A stretch of 14,311 bases of DNA from positions 1 to 14,311 of the forward strand of contig CAMPJV010000029.1 in NCBI GenBank assembly GCA_946886975.1, in the 5' to 3' direction. This document shows, in pieces, positions 12 to 5,917 of the stretch (its first letter is position 1; the number at the start of each line of letters is the position of its first letter). This DNA is from an uncultured Taibaiella sp. (GTDB lineage Bacteria; Bacteroidota; Bacteroidia; Chitinophagales; Chitinophagaceae). Below the pieces are notes generated by a model. It was not told the DNA's origin and ran no database searches. It saw only the letters and a program-made list of their open reading frames with translations. The position numbers and the translations under genes were made by a program.

Positions 12-419
12 ATGAAGAAGAAGGGCGTGATATTAGCATTATTGGGTGGTTTGGTTGCCGTGGCGGTGGCCATTGTACTGGTCTGGAACAAGCCGCACAA
101 GACAGTAGATAATAAGGATGGGGTGAGCATCACGGCTGAGGCACTGACCAAAGCGTTTGAAGAGAATGAGCAGCAGGCCAACACCACGTACCTAAGCAGC
201 ATACTTGAAGTAGAAGGAATAATATCTGAGATCACCAGGAACCAGGACGGGAGGACAGTGCTTTTGCTGGGTGTCGAGGACCCCTTATCCGGGGTGCAGT
301 GTACTATGAAAGATGATGACGCAACATATGAGATCGGACAAAAGGTGACCATAAAGGGGTTTTGCAATGGGTATACTACTGTTGTTCTACTAAATGATTG
401 TGTGAACGTCAAAGAATAG
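12..419 (+). CDS. Membrane-anchored OB-fold (tRNA_anti-like) protein
   Basis: The product is 135 residues. Residues 6-24 form one hydrophobic segment after a lysine-rich start (MKKK), so it is probably an inner-membrane anchor with the rest in the periplasm; there is no lipobox. A short linker follows. Residues 60-135 alternate beta-strand-like segments (LEVEGIISEI, RTVLLLG, QKVTIKGFCNGY) in the pattern of the Bacteroidota 'tRNA_anti-like' OB-fold family. Despite that name, nothing here indicates tRNA binding. Cys97, Cys118 and Cys130 lie in the OB part and could form a disulfide. The gene ends 27 bases before the cytochrome lipoprotein gene and is probably co-transcribed with it. The start at 12 is the only one that gives the full anchor. 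Family assignment is from recognised pattern; the function is unknown. Confidence 0.8.
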   Translation: MKKKGVILALLGGLVAVAVAIVLVWNKPHKTVDNKDGVSITAEALTKAFEENEQQANTTYLSSILEVEGIISEITRNQDGRTVLLLGVEDPLSGVQCTMKDDDATYEIGQKVTIKGFCNGYTTVVLLNDCVNVKE

Positions 420-446
420 AGAACGAAACCGATAAGCTATCAGGAA

Positions 447-1205
447 ATGAAAAGGTTTACAAGTTGTGTATTGTTAACGGGAATATTAGGCATGGGACTT
501 TACGCATGTCAGCACAAGGGGGACGCCCCTCAGCCAGCTGTAACCGGGAACAATGGCGGGACAGGCGGGAATGACTCTACCGGTGAGGGGCCAGGAAGCG
601 GTACGGGTGAAGGGACTAAAGGTCCGGACACGAGTTTATGCTTTGAAAGAGACATCTTGCCGATCTTCATTTCAAACTGTGCAAAGAGTGGATGTCATGA
701 CGCCGCGTCAAGACAGGATGGCTATGAGTTCACCAGCTGGGCGACGATAACCAACAAGAAGTTTGAACCCTATGATGCGGAGGAAACTGAACTCTATGAG
801 AAGATTACGGAGAATGATCACGATGACCGAATGCCTCCGCCGCCGAATGCCCCGCTGACCTCAAAACAGATCGCCTTAATTAAGAACTGGATAGACAGAG
901 GCGCTCCTAATAGTACTGGATGCGCATCTACAGGTTGTGATACTCTTAACATTACATTCTCTGCAACGATACAGCCTTTGCTGAACAATTATTGCAAGGG
1001 ATGTCATAATAGTACGCTGCAGTCGGGTGGGTTTTCCTATGAAACCCATGGAGGTGTATTAGCCGCAGTAAACTCTGGCAGGTTTCTTGGAGCATTAAAG
1101 CATCAGGCGGGGTTTTCTCCGATGCCAAAGGGCGGGGCAAAGCTCACGGACTGCCAGATCAGACAAATCGAGATATGGATAGCAGAGGGGTCGTTAAACA
1201 ACTAA
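447..1205 (+). CDS. Two-domain c-type cytochrome lipoprotein
   Basis: The product is 252 residues. A lipoprotein signal ends at Cys21 (lipobox GLYAC), followed by a Gly/Ser/Thr-rich low-complexity linker (about 32-60) that would hold the haem domains away from the membrane. Domain 1 (about 65-153) has Cys78-x4-Cys83-His84 and a candidate axial Met129 in RMPPPP. Domain 2 (about 163-252) has a canonical Cys183-x2-Cys186-His187 and Met226 in PMPKGG. Both domains end in a similar helix (IKNWIDRGAPN and IEIWIAEGSLNN), which points to internal duplication. The organisation resembles the planctomycete-type cytochrome c domains that are common in Bacteroidota. Expected role: an envelope electron carrier with one or two covalent haems. 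Whether the CX4CH site carries haem cannot be told from sequence. The gene lies in the middle of a plus-strand cluster with a one-domain paralogue directly downstream. Confidence 0.87.
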   Translation: MKRFTSCVLLTGILGMGLYACQHKGDAPQPAVTGNNGGTGGNDSTGEGPGSGTGEGTKGPDTSLCFERDILPIFISNCAKSGCHDAASRQDGYEFTSWATITNKKFEPYDAEETELYEKITENDHDDRMPPPPNAPLTSKQIALIKNWIDRGAPNSTGCASTGCDTLNITFSATIQPLLNNYCKGCHNSTLQSGGFSYETHGGVLAAVNSGRFLGALKHQAGFSPMPKGGAKLTDCQIRQIEIWIAEGSLNN

Positions 1206-1227
1206 AAGGTTTATTTTGAACCTTTTA
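1203..1227 (+). promoter_or_regulatory. Intercistronic hairpin between cytochrome genes
   Basis: A perfect inverted repeat, TAAAAGGTT/AACCTTTTA, with a 7-base loop (TATTTTG) overlaps the stop codon of the upstream gene. No T-run follows, so it is unlikely to be a full terminator. It could stabilise or process the mRNA between the two cytochrome genes. Low GC content makes the stem only moderately stable. Confidence 0.4.
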
Positions 1228-1235
1228 AAGCAAAT

Positions 1236-1628
1236 ATGATGAAGAAACTCTTATTGATAGGGTCACTAGCAGGATTTGGTGCATTAGCAATGACTGGTTG
1301 CTATAACGACAATAGCGAGGAGCTATATCCGAAAGTACCTGTCACGAACTGTGATACTGCTAATCTATCATTTTCCGCAACGGTTGCTCCCATTTTCAAC
1401 ACCAACTGTGCAGCGGCGGCGGGCTGTCACAAGACAGGGTCGAATACCGGCGGGTACATTCTGGATGGCTATGAAGGAGCTAAGCAGGCAGCAAATTCTG
1501 GCAGGCTGATCGGAGCTATCAACTGGCTGCCAGGTCATTCGCAGATGCCCAAAGGAGGATCGAAGCTATCAGATTGTGATATACTGAAAATAGAGACATG
1601 GGTGAATAGAGGCACCCCTAATAACTAG
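1236..1628 (+). CDS. Single-domain cytochrome c-like lipoprotein with CX5CH motif
   Basis: The product is 130 residues with a lipoprotein signal peptide and lipobox AMTGC (lipidated Cys22). The mature part (about 38-130) aligns closely with the second domain of the preceding cytochrome: both share a CDT-N-SFSAT start, a GG-Y-GV/A-A-NSGR core, an SxMPKGGxKLxDC segment and the ending NN. The haem-binding position reads Cys58-A-A-A-A-G-Cys64-His65, five residues between the cysteines instead of two. The spacer is encoded by GCA GCG GCG GCG GGC, a GCG-rich run that could have expanded by slippage. Met104 is the candidate axial ligand. It is probably a paralogue of the upstream gene. It may bind haem through a non-canonical motif or may have lost covalent haem attachment; the sequence cannot decide. 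Confidence 0.82.
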   Translation: MMKKLLLIGSLAGFGALAMTGCYNDNSEELYPKVPVTNCDTANLSFSATVAPIFNTNCAAAAGCHKTGSNTGGYILDGYEGAKQAANSGRLIGAINWLPGHSQMPKGGSKLSDCDILKIETWVNRGTPNN

Positions 1629-1653
1629 TGAATAAACAGGAAAACTTAATACT

Positions 1654-2202
1654 ATGAAAAAGATCGTGATTGCTACAGCATTATTGTGTGGAATGTCAGC
1701 AAGTGTGTTTGCCCAGAAGTACATGACTAGGACTGGGAAGGTTACCTTTTTCTCTTCTACGCCGGTGGAGAATATAGAAGCGTTTAACAATGATGTGTCG
1801 AGCGTGTTGGATTCTAAATCAGGGGAGGTGGCCTTCGTGGTTCCTATAAAGAGCTTCAAGTTTGAGAAAGCACTGATGCAGGAGCACTTCAATGAGAACT
1901 ACATGGAGAGTGACAAATATCCCAAGGCAGATTTTAAGGGGAAGGTGACTAATCTTGGTGACGTGAACTTTGCCAAAGACGGCAACTATAGTGTAAAAGT
2001 GGCTGGTGCACTGACAATACATGGAGTGACGAAGAATGTGAGCCTGCCGGGTACCATAACGGTGAAAGGGGGCAGCATAACAACTAATTCCAAATTTAAG
2101 GTGAAGACTGCGGACTATGGTATTAAGATACCAGCGATGGTAAAGAACAAGATTGCGGAGCAGATAGAAGTGACGGTAAACAGCATTCTAAGCAAGAAGT
2201 AA
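1654..2202 (+). CDS. YceI family secreted lipid-binding protein
   Basis: The product is 182 residues with a Sec signal peptide (1-20, ending VFA before Gln21). The mature protein is a single YceI-type lipocalin-like beta barrel. Recognisable features are VTFFSSTPVENIEA near the start, SFKFEKALMQEHFNENYM with DKYPKADFKG in the middle, and LTIHGVTKNVSLPGTI in the second half, which matches the family's 'GVTK-V-LP' strand. Characterised YceI proteins bind long-chain isoprenoids or quinone-like lipids in the periplasm, and the family is often encoded beside membrane cytochromes. The gene lies 25 bases after the CX5CH cytochrome gene and 43 bases before the DUF5777 gene, consistent with one operon. 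Family assignment is secure; the ligand is unknown. Confidence 0.92.
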   Translation: MKKIVIATALLCGMSASVFAQKYMTRTGKVTFFSSTPVENIEAFNNDVSSVLDSKSGEVAFVVPIKSFKFEKALMQEHFNENYMESDKYPKADFKGKVTNLGDVNFAKDGNYSVKVAGALTIHGVTKNVSLPGTITVKGGSITTNSKFKVKTADYGIKIPAMVKNKIAEQIEVTVNSILSKK

Positions 2203-2245
2203 TATTTTGTGCCCAAACTGCACATTTGTAAATCAATAAATCTTT

Positions 2246-3232
2246 ATGGTCATCAAACCGATCCTGATCTTTTGTCTTTTAGTGTTTAGTGCAGCTGGCT
2301 CTGAGGTGTATGCCCAAATTCCGGTTCAATCTCCAAAGGACTCGACAGGTGGTGAGGAAGGGGATTTGATGAGCATGCTGGAAGAGGAGACAGCCGTGCC
2401 TGCACGAGAGTATACCACGGCAACCTTCAAGACAACCAGGATAGCGAACGGACACAGTATAGAAAATACCGGGAAGGGAGTACTGGACTTCCGGGTTGGG
2501 CACCGGTTTGGCTATCTTAACCAAGGCTTCAAAGAGTTCTTTGGGCTGGATAATGCCACAACCAGGATAGCTTTTGACTACGGGGTGACTGACTGGCTGA
2601 TGATAGGGATAGGGAGAAGCTCGTACAAGAAGGAGTATGATGGGTTTATCAAACCGAAGCTATTGAGGCAAAGAGACGGAGGAATGCCATTTTCGCTGAG
2701 CTATATGGGGGGTATATCCATACGTACGCTTGACGAACCACATGCTGATACTGCCGAGTATTATTTTAGTAACAGGCTGGCTTATGTGAACCAGTTGCTG
2801 ATAGCAAGGAAATTCAACTCGTGGCTGTCGCTGCAGCTGATGCCTACCCATGTGCATTATAACCTTGTTCCTTTTAAGAATGACCCGAACGATGTGGTGG
2901 CTATAGGGCTTGGTGGAAGAATAAAACTATCTAACAGGATCTCTCTTACTGGAGAGTGGTATTACCAACTCTCTTCTATGCAAAGACATAATGAAGGTGA
3001 TCCTGCAATGATGACAAAAAACCCATTGACTATAGGCTTTGATATTGAAACGGGAGGACACGTTTTTCAGCTCATGTTCTCTAACGCGCCGGGCATTACA
3101 GAAAGAACGGTAATAGGTGAAACTACAGGCGATTGGGGAAAGGGCGATGTTTTGTTTGGGTTTAATATTTCGAGGGTATTTACGGTGGTAAAGCCTAAAG
3201 GATTTGAGAATTCGAGGAACAAGATCTGGTAA
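2246..3232 (+). CDS. DUF5777 family outer-membrane beta-barrel protein
   Basis: The product is 328 residues with a signal peptide ending near Ala23 (VYA before Gln24). An acidic stretch (about 34-50) is followed by the characteristic DUF5777 opening: TTATFKTTRIANGHSIE, GKGVLDFRVGHRFG and FFGLDNATTRIAFDYGVTDWLMIGIGRSS (about residues 57-126). The remainder alternates amphipathic strands (LAYVNQLLIARKF, ISLTGEWYYQLS, VFQLMFSNAPG), as expected for an outer-membrane barrel, and ends with a short charged tail rather than a canonical C-terminal aromatic. The function of the family is not known to me. It is the last gene of the cytochrome/YceI cluster and is followed 29 bases later by a strong terminator, which suggests it is the outer-membrane partner of that cluster. 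Confidence 0.85.
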   Translation: MVIKPILIFCLLVFSAAGSEVYAQIPVQSPKDSTGGEEGDLMSMLEEETAVPAREYTTATFKTTRIANGHSIENTGKGVLDFRVGHRFGYLNQGFKEFFGLDNATTRIAFDYGVTDWLMIGIGRSSYKKEYDGFIKPKLLRQRDGGMPFSLSYMGGISIRTLDEPHADTAEYYFSNRLAYVNQLLIARKFNSWLSLQLMPTHVHYNLVPFKNDPNDVVAIGLGGRIKLSNRISLTGEWYYQLSSMQRHNEGDPAMMTKNPLTIGFDIETGGHVFQLMFSNAPGITERTVIGETTGDWGKGDVLFGFNISRVFTVVKPKGFENSRNKIW

Positions 3233-3261
3233 GACTTTTCGGGGATAGGTGATGAAAGATG

Positions 3262-3290
3262 AGCTCCATTTTTAATGGAGCTTTTTCTTT
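3262..3290 (+). terminator. Intrinsic terminator of the cytochrome/YceI/DUF5777 cluster
   Basis: A perfect 9-bp stem, AGCTCCATT/AATGGAGCT, with a 3-base TTT loop is followed by the T-rich tract TTTTCTTT. It sits 29 bases after the stop codon of the DUF5777 gene. Confidence 0.92.
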
Positions 3291-3440
3291 GCCTGAGCGG
3301 ATGGTGGCGAGAATATCGCAGGTGCAACACATCAGCGGCCATCAAAAATAATTAATACCGTTTTAATCCCCTGTATTGTAAATGAATCAACTTCAATTGG
3401 GCTTGCGATTAGTATTCTTAAAATTTTCTAAAATGTTATG

Positions 3441-3854: not shown

Positions 3855-4790
3855 CTATGCTACCAAAGTATCGAGTACCTGGTTCATGTTGCGAACGGCC
3901 TCTGCTGATTTGTTGAAAGCTTCCTGTTCTTCAGTGTTGAGCTTGAAGTCGATGATCTTTTCCCAGCCTTTGCTGCCTATTACGACAGGAACGCCAAGAC
4001 AAATATCGTTCTGACCATATTCTCCTTCGAGCAATACGCAGCAAGGAAATACTTTCTTTTGATTGCGAATGATGCTTTCGACAAGGGCAGCTCCGGCAGC
4101 TCCGGGAGCGTACCATGCGGAAGTGCCAAGAAGCTTAGTAAGCGTTGCTCCGCCGACCATGGTGTCTGAAGCGACCTGTTTCAATTGATCAGCATTCAGG
4201 AAGTTGCTTACAGGCGTACCGTTGAGAGAGGCAAGACGAGTAAGAGGAATCATTGTAGTATCGCCATGGCCGCCGATCACAGTGGCATGAAGGTCATTCT
4301 GAGAGCAATTCAGGGCCTGCTGGAGGTAAGTCTTAAAGCGAGAGCTGTCAAGGATACCACCCATACCGATGATGCGGTTCTTTGGAAGACCTGTCGCTTT
4401 GAGAGTAAGATAGGTCATCGTATCCATTGGGTTAGAGATAACGACGATAACGGTGTTAGGAGAGTACTGGAGTAAGTTCTTCGCTACTGTCTCCACTATC
4501 TTGGCGTTGGTGCCTATCAGTTCCTCGCGGGTCATACCTGGCTTACGAGGGATGCCTGAGGTGATAACGCATACGTCGGAGTTAGCTGTTTTGCTGTAAT
4601 CGTTAGTGCTGCCAATGACGCGCGTGTCGAAACCTAAGAGTGAGGAGGTCTGCATAATGTCTAATGCTTTTCCTTCGGCAAAACCTTCCTTGATGTCTAC
4701 GAGTACGAGCTCTTCTACAAGGCCTCTGCGGGCGATATTGTCGGCACAGGTTGCACCTACAGCGCCGGCACCCACTACAGTTACTTTCAT
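3855..4790 (-). CDS. mdh: Malate dehydrogenase, LDH-like NAD-dependent type
   Basis: It interconverts malate and oxaloacetate with NAD in the cytoplasm (TCA cycle). The 311 residues match the usual length of the LDH-like MDH group. Residues 7-13 form the Rossmann glycine motif GAGAVGA. Asp32 at the end of the second strand indicates NAD rather than NADP. The substrate loop is IPRKPGMTR, with Arg82 and Arg88; Arg at position 82, instead of the Gln of lactate dehydrogenases, supports malate specificity. Asn120 is in ISNPMD, Asp148 and Arg151 in LDSSR, and the catalytic base is His175 in GGHGD. All key residues are present. It has its own -7 box about 39 bases upstream and its own terminator, so it is a single-gene unit. 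Confidence 0.96.
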   Translation of the reverse strand: MKVTVVGAGAVGATCADNIARRGLVEELVLVDIKEGFAEGKALDIMQTSSLLGFDTRVIGSTNDYSKTANSDVCVITSGIPRKPGMTREELIGTNAKIVETVAKNLLQYSPNTVIVVISNPMDTMTYLTLKATGLPKNRIIGMGGILDSSRFKTYLQQALNCSQNDLHATVIGGHGDTTMIPLTRLASLNGTPVSNFLNADQLKQVASDTMVGGATLTKLLGTSAWYAPGAAGAALVESIIRNQKKVFPCCVLLEGEYGQNDICLGVPVVIGSKGWEKIIDFKLNTEEQEAFNKSAEAVRNMNQVLDTLVA

Positions 4791-4946: not shown

Positions 4947-5795
4947 TTAGTAATACCTCGGTCCTCTTCTGTCTCCGTTATCCTGAGCATCTCCTCTCCA
5001 GAACCTGGGGCTGAGCTCCAGTGTTATGCCCATTGACATATAGAACGGAGTCTCAATGCGAAGGCGTGGCTTGCCAACATTGAAATTGGCGCCGAACTGC
5101 ATATTGAACTTTGCGTATTTGTAGCCGACGTTCAGGTTCATAAAGGGGCCGACGAGGACGAAAGTGGGATCTTCGATGTCTACCCTTGGGTCTGTGAACT
5201 CTCTGCGGAAGCCGATGTTGTCGGAGGTAAAGGAGGAGTATTTATGGATATTGAACTTAACGCCTCCACACATATCGAACACCTCCTTTGCATAGAAACC
5301 AATGGAGGGCTGCAGGAATATCTGGTAGTACTTTGAATTATAATTTCCAATGATGCCAGGTCCTTTCTCGAGATTTCTTCTATCCATAGAACCGACGGCG
5401 CCGCCCCCGTAAATCTCGAAGAGACCTTTGCCGCCGAAAGGCATATAATAGCCTGCACCGAACTCCCAGCGGCTGCCTTCATAGCGCACGCTGTCCTGGG
5501 AACCATAGGTATTATCGTAGTCTTCATCTTCATCGGCGTAGCGGTTAGTCTTTCGATAGCTGGCAATCAGCCCCAGGCCAGTAACAGGCGAGACGGCAAA
5601 GTCGAGGGAAGGACTGAGCACTGTCTTTGGGGCATTGGAGTTGTTTTGGATCTTCAGGGAGCTGGTGAGCTTCACATCGCCGGCTTCGCGGAGCATGGGG
5701 GCATTTGTACGTTCCGGCAGGTATATTTTCGGGGCACATGAAGAGCACACCACAGCGAAGGAAAGGAGGAGGAAAAGAGGTAGTAGCTGACGCAT
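4947..5795 (-). CDS. Putative outer-membrane beta-barrel lipoprotein
   Basis: The product is 282 residues from the ATG at 5795. The signal peptide MRQLLPLFLLLSFAVV is followed by Cys17 and Cys20 (CSSCAPK); one of these is probably the lipidated residue. The rest alternates amphipathic strands rich in Tyr, Phe and Gly (WEFGAGYYMPFG, GLFEIYGGGAVG, YQIFLQPSIGFYAKE, FMNLNVGYKYAKFNMQFGANF), as in small outer-membrane barrels of Bacteroidota. A longer reading with a TTG start at 5885 exists, but it would begin inside the aldolase terminator and bury the signal peptide, so I reject it. The gene lies between aldolase and malate dehydrogenase with its own likely promoter. I do not recognise a named family; the function is unknown. 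Confidence 0.75.
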   Translation of the reverse strand: MRQLLPLFLLLSFAVVCSSCAPKIYLPERTNAPMLREAGDVKLTSSLKIQNNSNAPKTVLSPSLDFAVSPVTGLGLIASYRKTNRYADEDEDYDNTYGSQDSVRYEGSRWEFGAGYYMPFGGKGLFEIYGGGAVGSMDRRNLEKGPGIIGNYNSKYYQIFLQPSIGFYAKEVFDMCGGVKFNIHKYSSFTSDNIGFRREFTDPRVDIEDPTFVLVGPFMNLNVGYKYAKFNMQFGANFNVGKPRLRIETPFYMSMGITLELSPRFWRGDAQDNGDRRGPRYY

Positions 5796-5810
5796 AGAGC
5801 TAGTTTGGTG

Positions 5811-5818
5811 GAAAATTA
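5811..5818 (-). promoter_or_regulatory. Probable -7 box TAATTTTC of the barrel lipoprotein gene
   Basis: TAATTTTC on the minus strand matches seven of eight positions' worth of the TAnnTTTG pattern (final G is C) and is followed by CACC, as at the mdh and aldolase promoters. It ends 15 bases before the ATG at 5795, which supports that start. Confidence 0.5.
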
Positions 5819-5848
5819 TATAAAAACCGCTACATGGTGCACTTATTC

Positions 5849-5863
5849 GACATGCTGCATGTC
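5849..5863. repeat. Palindrome GACATGCTGCATGTC upstream of barrel lipoprotein
   Basis: Two perfect 7-bp arms flank a single T. The site is 31 bases upstream of the likely -7 box of the barrel lipoprotein gene, between it and the aldolase terminator. The position suits an operator; no regulator gene is nearby. Confidence 0.45.
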
Positions 5864-5881
5864 TTTTCAGGTCATCCGCAT

Positions 5882-5917
5882 ACAAAAAGGGCTGCTTTTT
5901 ATTGCAGCCCTTTTGTA
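5882..5917 (-). terminator. Intrinsic terminator of aldolase gene
   Basis: On the minus strand AAAAGGGCTGC (5914-5904) pairs perfectly with GCAGCCCTTTT (5895-5885) across an 8-base A-rich loop and continues with T residues. It starts 20 bases after the aldolase stop codon. The flanking A and T runs make it likely to work in both directions. Confidence 0.92.

Follow-up and report, generated by a model that had tools for sequence, protein, structure and literature searches.

Five adjacent plus-strand genes at the start of our window (the whole stretch of DNA analysed here, 14,311 nucleotides) look like an unstudied electron-handling module of the outer cell envelope, whose core, a DUF5777 barrel, a YceI protein and a small electron carrier, is common to many Bacteroidota. 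The ORF coordinates agree with the preliminary description, which had reported five neighbouring genes with gaps of 25–43 bases (27, 30, 25 and 43 in gene order); its list of products, namely one OB-fold protein, two haem-c lipoproteins, one YceI and one DUF5777, is borne out by the Pfam matches and by the alignment of cytochrome B. The genes and two hairpins are as follows:

12–419, + strand: gene 1, membrane-anchored periplasmic OB-fold protein, PF12869 (tRNA_anti-like; Pfam 5.8e-26, structural model)
447–1205, + strand: gene 2, cytochrome A, lipoprotein with two class-I haem-c domains (Pfam, lipobox, haem motifs)
1203–1227, + strand: hairpin with an 11-pair stem between the cytochrome genes, overlapping the stop codon of cytochrome A
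1236–1628, + strand: gene 3, cytochrome B, one-haem lipoprotein (CYxDxxExLYP-type family signature after the lipobox)
1654–2202, + strand: gene 4, YceI-family lipocalin of the HFNENY-motif subfamily (PF04264, 1e-19)
2246–3232, + strand: gene 5, DUF5777 outer-membrane barrel (PF19089, 7e-96; AlphaFold model)
3261–3283, + strand: predicted intrinsic terminator, 3' of DUF5777

Every product had been said to carry an envelope-targeting signal, and reading the N-termini by eye we found one on each: an uncleaved membrane anchor on the OB-fold protein, a lipobox on each of the two lipoproteins, and Sec signals ending in AFA/Q and VYA/Q on the remaining two products. The claim that the genes end in one terminator stands in part; the hairpin at 3261–3283 does fold well (z of −3.58 for 3248–3300), but a scan of the whole window gave 13 terminator matches against 12.7 in shuffles, that is, no excess, so that the five genes are presumably transcribed together. 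The hairpin at 1203–1227 (z of −3.84, with none of 200 shuffles folding equally well) is a possible attenuator or mRNA-stability element. One has to keep in mind that the window begins 11 bases 5' of gene 1, and that a block of YceI, sensor kinase and LytTR-type regulator lies upstream in 9 of the 11 best-matching loci (L001–L011, except L008 and L009; the kinase and regulator domains were tested in L001 alone); the cluster is thus probably truncated at its 5' side by the window edge, and regulators probably precede gene 1.

The OB-fold protein belongs to PF12869 (91.2 bits for a gathering cut-off of 23.5), and its model (mean pLDDT 93) has a helix at residues 3–25 followed by beta strands. 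Its top PDB match is 3f1z, a Klebsiella lipoprotein (E 6e-5); CcmE, which bears on the idea of a haem chaperone, is absent from the 50 fold-search matches listed, where we saw 3f1z, tRNA-synthetase and other OB folds.

Both cytochromes can be described by their haem motifs:

678–698, + strand: motif 1 of cytochrome A, CX4CH, with the spacing seen in fused cytochrome–DUF5777 proteins
993–1007, + strand: motif 2 of cytochrome A, CXXCH, read from the sequence
1407–1430, + strand: motif of cytochrome B, CX5CH, where relatives mostly have CXXCH or CX4CH

Cytochrome A matches PSCyt1 (4e-10) and Cytochrom_C (1.6e-5) in Pfam, has its lipobox cysteine at residue 21 and holds two sets of the class-I haem-c ligand motif (CXnCH plus Met). 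Cytochrome B gave a sub-threshold Pfam match alone, to Cytochrome_CBB3 (0.085); since both haem cysteines, the haem histidine and a Met-Pro pair are invariant among 17 aligned sequences including that of the window, with variable spacing of the cysteines, it is a credible class-I haem-c protein.

The fourth product is a member of PF04264 (71.8 bits, gathering cut-off 23.7), with the following hallmark:

1885–1911, + strand: HFNENYMES segment, in which H, F, N, E, N, Y, E and S are invariant among 26 cluster-associated YceI proteins, the window one included

A profile search matched 5ixg and 5ixh, named BcnB and BcnA, respectively, in the part of PMC9113575 available to us, and the similarity of the subfamily to solved YceI structures is modest (top E 1.4e-6). 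YceI-like domains are described as binding ubiquinone-8 and co-occurring with c-type cytochromes (PMC8981238, available in part), and a YceI gene is among those listed in a study of iron limitation in Riemerella (PMC5429918, likewise in part).

That DUF5777 (320.7 bits against PF19089, gathering cut-off 23.1) is a barrel, as first proposed, is supported by the AlphaFold model (mean pLDDT 87.9) and by hydrophobic alternation in most strands. The model has 13 strand segments, which we count as 12 strands by merging 252–256 with 261–269. Three residues stand out:

2501–2503, + strand: His86, strand 1, lipid-facing parity; 173/174 sequences and 120/120 listed fusions
3059–3061, + strand: His272, strand 11, probably lipid-facing; 172/174 sequences and 120/120 listed fusions
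3173–3175, + strand: Arg310, strand 12, lipid-facing parity; 98% of 174 sequences and 120/120 listed fusions

The 174 sequences omit L003, L020, L036, L052 and L060, whose DUF5777 ORF was lost in a greedy choice of ORFs, and include five paralogues (L182–L186) from hand-picked genomes. These near-invariant residues would lie at the seam of the modelled barrel and probably face the lipid, an assignment weakly determined for His272 given the weak alternation of strand 11. Twelve strands would make a barrel with too little room inside for a cytochrome, so that electrons could hardly cross the membrane through haem alone.

We then turn to gene linkage, computed here with profiles built from 80 hand-selected loci. 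The five genes might have been rarely found together elsewhere, and this is not the case: across a phylum-wide sample of genomes, and leaving aside the own copy of sampling genome G002, 74 of the 93 DUF5777 copies have a cytochrome c gene on their own strand at a distance of no more than 2.5 kb, 70 have a YceI gene in that range, and 58 have both. In a control zone 4–6.5 kb away the same 93 copies gave 0 cytochrome c and 1 YceI, and this difference rules out a chance neighbourhood. When cytochromes, Rieske proteins and the cupredoxin/DOMON group are pooled, 83/93 copies have a candidate carrier nearby, in 17 cases with no YceI or YceI-like gene; five copies have YceI and no carrier, and another five neither, among which L095 and L174 sit on short contigs while L099, L100 and L116 have YceI, or YceI plus cytochrome c, on the opposite strand. 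Conversely, 78 of the 107 listed matches to the YceI subfamily (E up to 1e-15) are at most 3 kb from a DUF5777 gene and 29 are away from one; the best 90 comprise 71 near ones, and the other 17 split into 7 near and 10 away. The fixed set of five genes implied at the outset did not survive this comparison: the exact order recurs in 11 loci (HMM-based count over all 80), many DUF5777 copies have a single cytochrome or none, the OB-fold gene is near 19/93 copies and is an optional member, and, as said, regulators probably come first.

The carrier can also be part of the barrel protein or be exchanged. Locus L181 encodes a single ORF of 411 aa in which a CX4CH...MP domain precedes DUF5777 (PF19089 at residues 161–408); its two parts match window cytochrome A (E 4e-5) and the window barrel (E 8e-20). 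This plan, found in Rhodothermota-type relatives, is kept in 120/120 listed homologues (318 matched), all with CX4CH, and over 14 fusions conservation averages 0.73 in the barrel and 0.67 in the cytochrome part. As no YceI adjoins the L181 gene, YceI may be dispensable for the module. Elsewhere the barrel gene is flanked by a Rieske protein (PF00355; L113, L156), a plastocyanin-type cupredoxin (PF00127; L094, L101, L139, L153) or a DOMON-like protein (L105, a weak match), and most of these carriers adjoin YceI as well. On the barrel tree the Rieske label changes at least six times and the cupredoxin/DOMON label at least five; 6 of the 8 proteins of the latter group have type IX secretion tails, which suggests that they are located at the surface. 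One paralogue clade of DUF5777 (10 copies) is accompanied by other redox genes, with a 4Fe-4S/NrfD block in 7/10; the block tested for domains, that of L184, is closest to DsrO/DsrP and scores below the curated cut-offs.

The idea of a redox module has gained strong new support from the fusions and from the other electron carriers that can take the place of the cytochrome, while its ligand, direction and purpose stay matters that we infer. As we picture it, a reading to which we give somewhat better than an even chance, the small barrel, with its 12 predicted strands, would have the haem-c lipoproteins A and B docked on its periplasmic side, as a split version of the Rhodothermota fusion, and YceI would carry an isoprenoid lipid, for which menaquinone is the likeliest candidate, to and fro between the barrel complex and the pool in the inner membrane. 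The module would then link the respiratory chain with the outer membrane or the cell surface by an exchange of reducing equivalents; the probably lipid-facing, conserved His/His/Arg/Phe patch at the seam could be where the head group of the lipid, or some other partner in the membrane, meets the complex, and the inner-membrane-anchored OB-fold protein might be an optional assembly or tethering factor. A bolder version, which we put forward very tentatively, would be that Bacteroidota and Rhodothermota share an electron-transfer system, so far undescribed, which ends at the outer membrane in DUF5777: YceI would collect menaquinone at the inner membrane and deliver it to the outer one, the head of the quinone would sit at the invariant His86/His272/Arg310 seam on the lipid-facing side of the barrel, a docked or fused haem-c (or Rieske/cupredoxin) protein would exchange electrons with it, and this outer-membrane quinone step would feed surface redox proteins.

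Antioxidant defence of the outer membrane is a different, and in our opinion unlikely, explanation, by which YceI supplies reduced quinone to outer-membrane lipids, the cytochromes recycle the quinone, the seam is an unloading site and no electrons are exported; a similar scheme has been suggested for BcnA/LcoA. A seam patch that probably faces the lipid fits it, as do the BcnA (YceI) and LcoA (cytochrome b561) mutants, with more membrane lipid peroxidation according to the available part of PMC9113575. DUF5777 has strong matches in 70 of 178 sampled genomes from the phylum of the window's relatives (75 once weak matches are included), and COX1, present in 170/178, hardly discriminates by mere presence; a split at a strong COX1 match puts strong DUF5777 in 70/139 genomes against 0/39 without one (Fisher p 1.8e-10, kinship ignored, the five weak-DUF5777 genomes counted as lacking it), which would place the family in respiring species. 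We give this split little weight, however, as the 1e-110 cut-off was our own choice and kinship confounds the association; moreover, this explanation does not account for the surface-targeted cupredoxin and DOMON-like partners and the NrfD-type block.

A split Cyc2-like oxidase or reductase, whose barrel would let a small soluble donor or acceptor (e.g., a metal ion) reach a haem plugged at the periplasmic mouth, seems to us just as doubtful. Indeed, Cyc2 is built of a signal, a one-haem domain and a barrel, as the fusions are (PMC8406198, available in part), and DUF5777 conserves several charged residues whose parity is that of the lumen side (e.g., R225 in 85%, E237 in 78%); but the Cyc2 motif AXPXFAR[Q/K][T/Y] occurs in 0/120 listed fusions and 0/116 unfused cytochromes including those of the window, the predicted strands number 12 instead of 16, and, among the charged or polar residues of the strands, those that vary least (H86, H272, R310) are on the probable outer face and not in the pore. 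Finally, an ordinary solute porin, sharing with the cytochromes and YceI nothing more than regulation, for example by oxygen, is very improbable in view of the fusion in 120/120 listed homologues, the strong gene linkage and invariant, probably lipid-facing seam residues unlike those of a general porin.

DUF5777 is named in no paper found by our literature search, which covered titles and abstract openings and in which this gene set is described nowhere; the strings “Bacteroid” and “Rhodotherm” are absent from the main text of PMC10654088 as partly available. Should the outer-membrane redox module be confirmed, Bacteroidota would handle outer-membrane electrons without multihaem conduits, and whether isoprenoid quinones are active in the outer membrane would become a testable question, for which the cytochrome–barrel fusions are ready-made single-gene constructs suited to structure and spectroscopy.

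Among known systems (the papers cited here being available in part), MtrCAB, PioAB and MtoAB also combine an outer-membrane barrel with c-type cytochromes, but theirs are 26-strand barrels around decahaem cytochromes (PMC8406198), whereas the window has 12 predicted strands and one- or two-haem proteins; the predicted barrel size and the haem number rule out an MtrCAB-like conduit. The 4Fe-4S and NrfD genes of the paralogue clade recall the menaquinone-linked DsrMKJOP and QrcABCD, L184 being best against DsrO and DsrP in NCBIfam, with the difference that its scores stay below cut-off and that the window has no such block. Cbp2D and Cbp2E of Cellvibrio share a YceI-like ubiquinone-binding domain, joined in Cbp2D, a proposed electron donor, by c-type cytochrome domains; that system is one multi-domain protein with a carbohydrate-binding module (PMC8981238), whereas the window has separate envelope proteins plus a barrel. 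In BcnA/LcoA a YceI lipocalin is likewise encoded with a cytochrome, partner fusions are reported, and the protective role at the outer membrane is the authors' hypothesis (PMC9113575). That cytochrome is a membrane b561, of which we found no match (LcoA-type) among the five genes of the window, itself cut upstream; the window cytochromes are c-type lipoproteins, and the cluster adds the DUF5777 barrel and the HFNENY segment of YceI. Cyc2 resembles our cluster in bearing one haem-c domain on an outer-membrane barrel, the cytochrome preceding the barrel and being expected on its periplasmic side (PMC8406198); the absent motif and the predicted strand number rule out membership in that family. 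Cyc2 has CXXCH where the listed fusions have CX4CH and the window has all three spacings given above, the one-haem domain and the barrel are fused in the Rhodothermota-type relatives but lie in separate genes in the window, and YceI accompanies most DUF5777 copies, unlike Cyc2. The Cyc2 porin is poorly conserved according to PMC8406198, whereas the barrel of the DUF5777 fusions is at least as conserved as their cytochrome part.

The preliminary description of five adjacent envelope genes on the plus strand was borne out by domain matches and by the spacing of the genes, which run from 12 to 3232 of the window with intergenic gaps of 27, 30, 25 and 43 bases. The export signals of the five products were assigned by eye.

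Genes of the cluster in the window
From 12, plus strand (gene 1 of 5): OB-fold protein with an N-terminal anchor (PF12869, domain match)
447–1205, plus strand (gene 2 of 5): cytochrome A, a lipoprotein with two haem-c domains (domain match)
1236–1628, plus strand (gene 3 of 5): cytochrome B, a lipoprotein with one haem-c domain (Pfam match below threshold)
1654–2202, plus strand (gene 4 of 5): YceI lipocalin (domain match)
2246–3232, plus strand (gene 5 of 5): DUF5777 protein, a predicted barrel (domain match)

In cytochrome B, the haem cysteines, the histidine and the methionine do not vary across 17 aligned sequences, of which the window's is one. The window's copy has an unusual CX5CH haem spacing; CXXCH and CX4CH prevail among the 116 cytochrome ORFs found in the window and its 80 related loci. 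A terminator is predicted 3' of DUF5777, and a hairpin between the cytochrome genes (1203–1227, z −3.84), which overlaps the stop codon of cytochrome A upstream of cytochrome B, could result in unequal expression of the two.

The 80 loci are the top matches, out of a larger number, obtained when contigs from one genome per species were searched with a DUF5777 alignment. YceI is found in 72/80, cytochrome c in 71/80, the OB-fold gene in 68/80 and all three in 62/80, on the same strand and no more than 3 kb away, as counted with profiles built from those same loci; the exact gene order of the window recurs in 11. As these loci had been picked as best matches, we drew an independent sample, in which DUF5777 is present in 75 of 178 genomes of the phylum (strong in 70) and in none of 14 control genomes. 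For the 93 DUF5777 copies taken with their flanks from this sample, the seed genome's own copy being excluded, cytochrome c lies within 2.5 kb on the same strand in 74 cases, YceI in 70, both in 58 and the OB-fold gene in 19; at 4–6.5 kb on either strand, the same copies have 0 cytochrome c, 1 YceI and 0 OB-fold genes. Seen from the other side, 78 of the 107 matches listed for the window-type YceI subfamily have a DUF5777 gene at a distance of 3 kb or less, against 29 without one that close. The near and far counts for cytochrome c and YceI, together with this reverse count, show linkage, so the possibility raised in the preliminary description, that the genes are rarely found together in other genomes, does not hold.

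The core is DUF5777, YceI and a small electron carrier, the latter being a cytochrome c in most copies. Elsewhere it is a Rieske 2Fe-2S protein (PF00355 found in two loci, L113 and L156, the remaining members being assigned by similarity clustering) or a plastocyanin-type cupredoxin (PF00127 in L094, L101, L139 and L153); L105, L108, L114 and L132 have a protein from the cupredoxins' similarity cluster, and in one of these four loci, L105, it gives a weak DOMON match below the curated cut-off (PF03351, E 6e-5). A C-terminal type IX secretion tail is carried by 6 of the 8 proteins of this cupredoxin/DOMON group, so that a protein with a probable redox role seems, in these lineages, to be exported to the cell surface next to the barrel. 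In a phylogeny of 105 DUF5777 sequences, well-supported branches require no fewer than six changes of the Rieske label and no fewer than five of the cupredoxin/DOMON label, either as gains or as losses. Ten copies form one clade (support 100/100) with other redox neighbours. In 7 of the 10 these include a 4Fe-4S and NrfD block, which in the tested locus (L184) is nearest to DsrO/DsrP and also matches QrcC and QrcD; a further cytochrome and an ethylbenzene-dehydrogenase-like domain are the other companions. Genes resembling RND-type metal efflux components were seen by eye upstream of DUF5777 in L117 and L151.

That cytochrome and barrel work as one unit is best supported by their occurrence as fusions. 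In locus L181, a single ORF of 411 residues runs from a signal through a haem-c domain (CX4CH...MP) to a DUF5777 barrel (PF19089 at 161–408); its product is identical to protein P0121, named by its source Rhodocaloribacter litoris (Rhodothermota). Pfam gave no match for the haem domain of this fusion, which we infer from the motif and from its alignment with the first domain of cytochrome A (E 4e-5, haem motifs superposed); the fusion barrel is 28% identical to the window's DUF5777 (E 8e-20). A protein search returned 318 relatives, and all 120 of those listed have CX4CH followed by Met-Pro N-terminal to the barrel; those named by organism are mostly Rhodothermales, with one Krumholzibacteriia. 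In a separate protein, P0004 (569 residues), two DUF5777 domains stand in tandem.

The AlphaFold model of DUF5777 (mean pLDDT 87.9) has 13 strand segments, which we read as a predicted 12-strand barrel since segments 252–256 and 261–269 look like one broken strand; its matches among solved structures are generic small barrels (OmpG, FapF, KdgM, NanC and a COG4313 channel). In 174 sequences covering all types, the best-kept positions are His86 (173), His272 (172), Phe88, Phe274 and Phe306 (99–100%) and Arg310 (98%), these six being kept in 120/120 fusions listed; Gly100, Pro148 and Gly305 are also among the most conserved. The six belong to strands 1, 11 and 12, neighbours at the closing seam of the modelled barrel, and occupy the more hydrophobic parity, so they probably face lipid. 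Hydrophobic alternation is seen along most strands, with least contrast in strand 6 and in strand 11 (0.7 vs 0.1), which makes the orientation of His272 and Phe274 uncertain. A patch conserved on the outer face is not what one would expect of an ordinary porin; it suggests that a membrane partner or the head group of a lipid is met there.

In the cluster-associated YceI, an HFNENY segment is invariant (26 sequences, window included), and the profile matches structures 5ixg and 5ixh, which are BcnB and BcnA in PMC9113575. The same paper counts ubiquinone-8 among the ligands found in YceI structures and ties BcnA and a cytochrome b561 to envelope protection against lipid peroxyl radicals. Proteins combining a YceI-like ubiquinone-8 domain with c-type cytochrome domains are described in PMC8981238.

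On balance, we lean towards a redox module in which haem-c lipoproteins would dock on the DUF5777 barrel, YceI would supply or remove an isoprenoid quinone, and the respiratory chain would exchange reducing equivalents with the outer membrane or the cell surface; antioxidant defence and direct extracellular exchange are the main competing purposes, each of which we hold to be improbable. Against the redox module, a barrel of 12 strands is expected to leave no room for a cytochrome inside, and 27 of the 93 copies are without YceI (17), a recognised carrier (5) or both (5) close by on the same strand. The redox reading of the preliminary description is partly supported, and sharpened, by the conserved linkage and the fusion; ligand and partner binding we still infer.

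Regulators vary with lineage. In 9 of the 11 loci best matching the window (L001–L007, L010 and L011), the cluster is preceded by genes for another YceI, a large sensor kinase and a LytTR-type response regulator, kinase and regulator being domain-tested in L001 only; the window is truncated on that side. A lipocalin adjoining a sensor kinase may point to sensing of lipid or quinone state. By eye, ECF sigma factor-, anti-sigma factor- and receptor-like genes (similarity clusters 5, 33 and 32) adjoin the cluster in L110–L112, L132, L094 and L101, and a CRP/FNR-like regulator lies upstream of it in L108, L114 and L172. A malate dehydrogenase gene (3855–4790, minus strand) faces the window's cluster, and its clustered relatives near DUF5777 in L003, L004, L007 and L008 point to a wider neighbourhood common to close relatives. 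The predicted 312-residue protein at 4947–5885 (minus strand) has no Pfam or NCBIfam match at E ≤0.1. One contig titled Phycisphaerales (L015) has a Bacteroidota-like OB-cytochrome-YceI-DUF5777 cluster, its DUF5777 50% identical to the window's, and is either mis-binned or the result of a transfer.

No paper names DUF5777 in the literature searched, a scope that leaves out most subscription papers and does not prove the family unpublished, and no title or abstract opening in it describes the gene set as such. We regard the cluster as conserved, modular and apparently unstudied, and as a probable outer-membrane redox cluster. In layout it would work like a split Cyc2, going by the features described in PMC8406198; identity was rejected, as the defining motif is in 0/120 listed fusions and 0/116 cytochromes and the predicted strand number is unlike the one that paper gives for Cyc2. 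With BcnA/LcoA, the cluster has the lipocalin-plus-cytochrome theme in common, and it differs from them in having c-type lipoproteins and a barrel.
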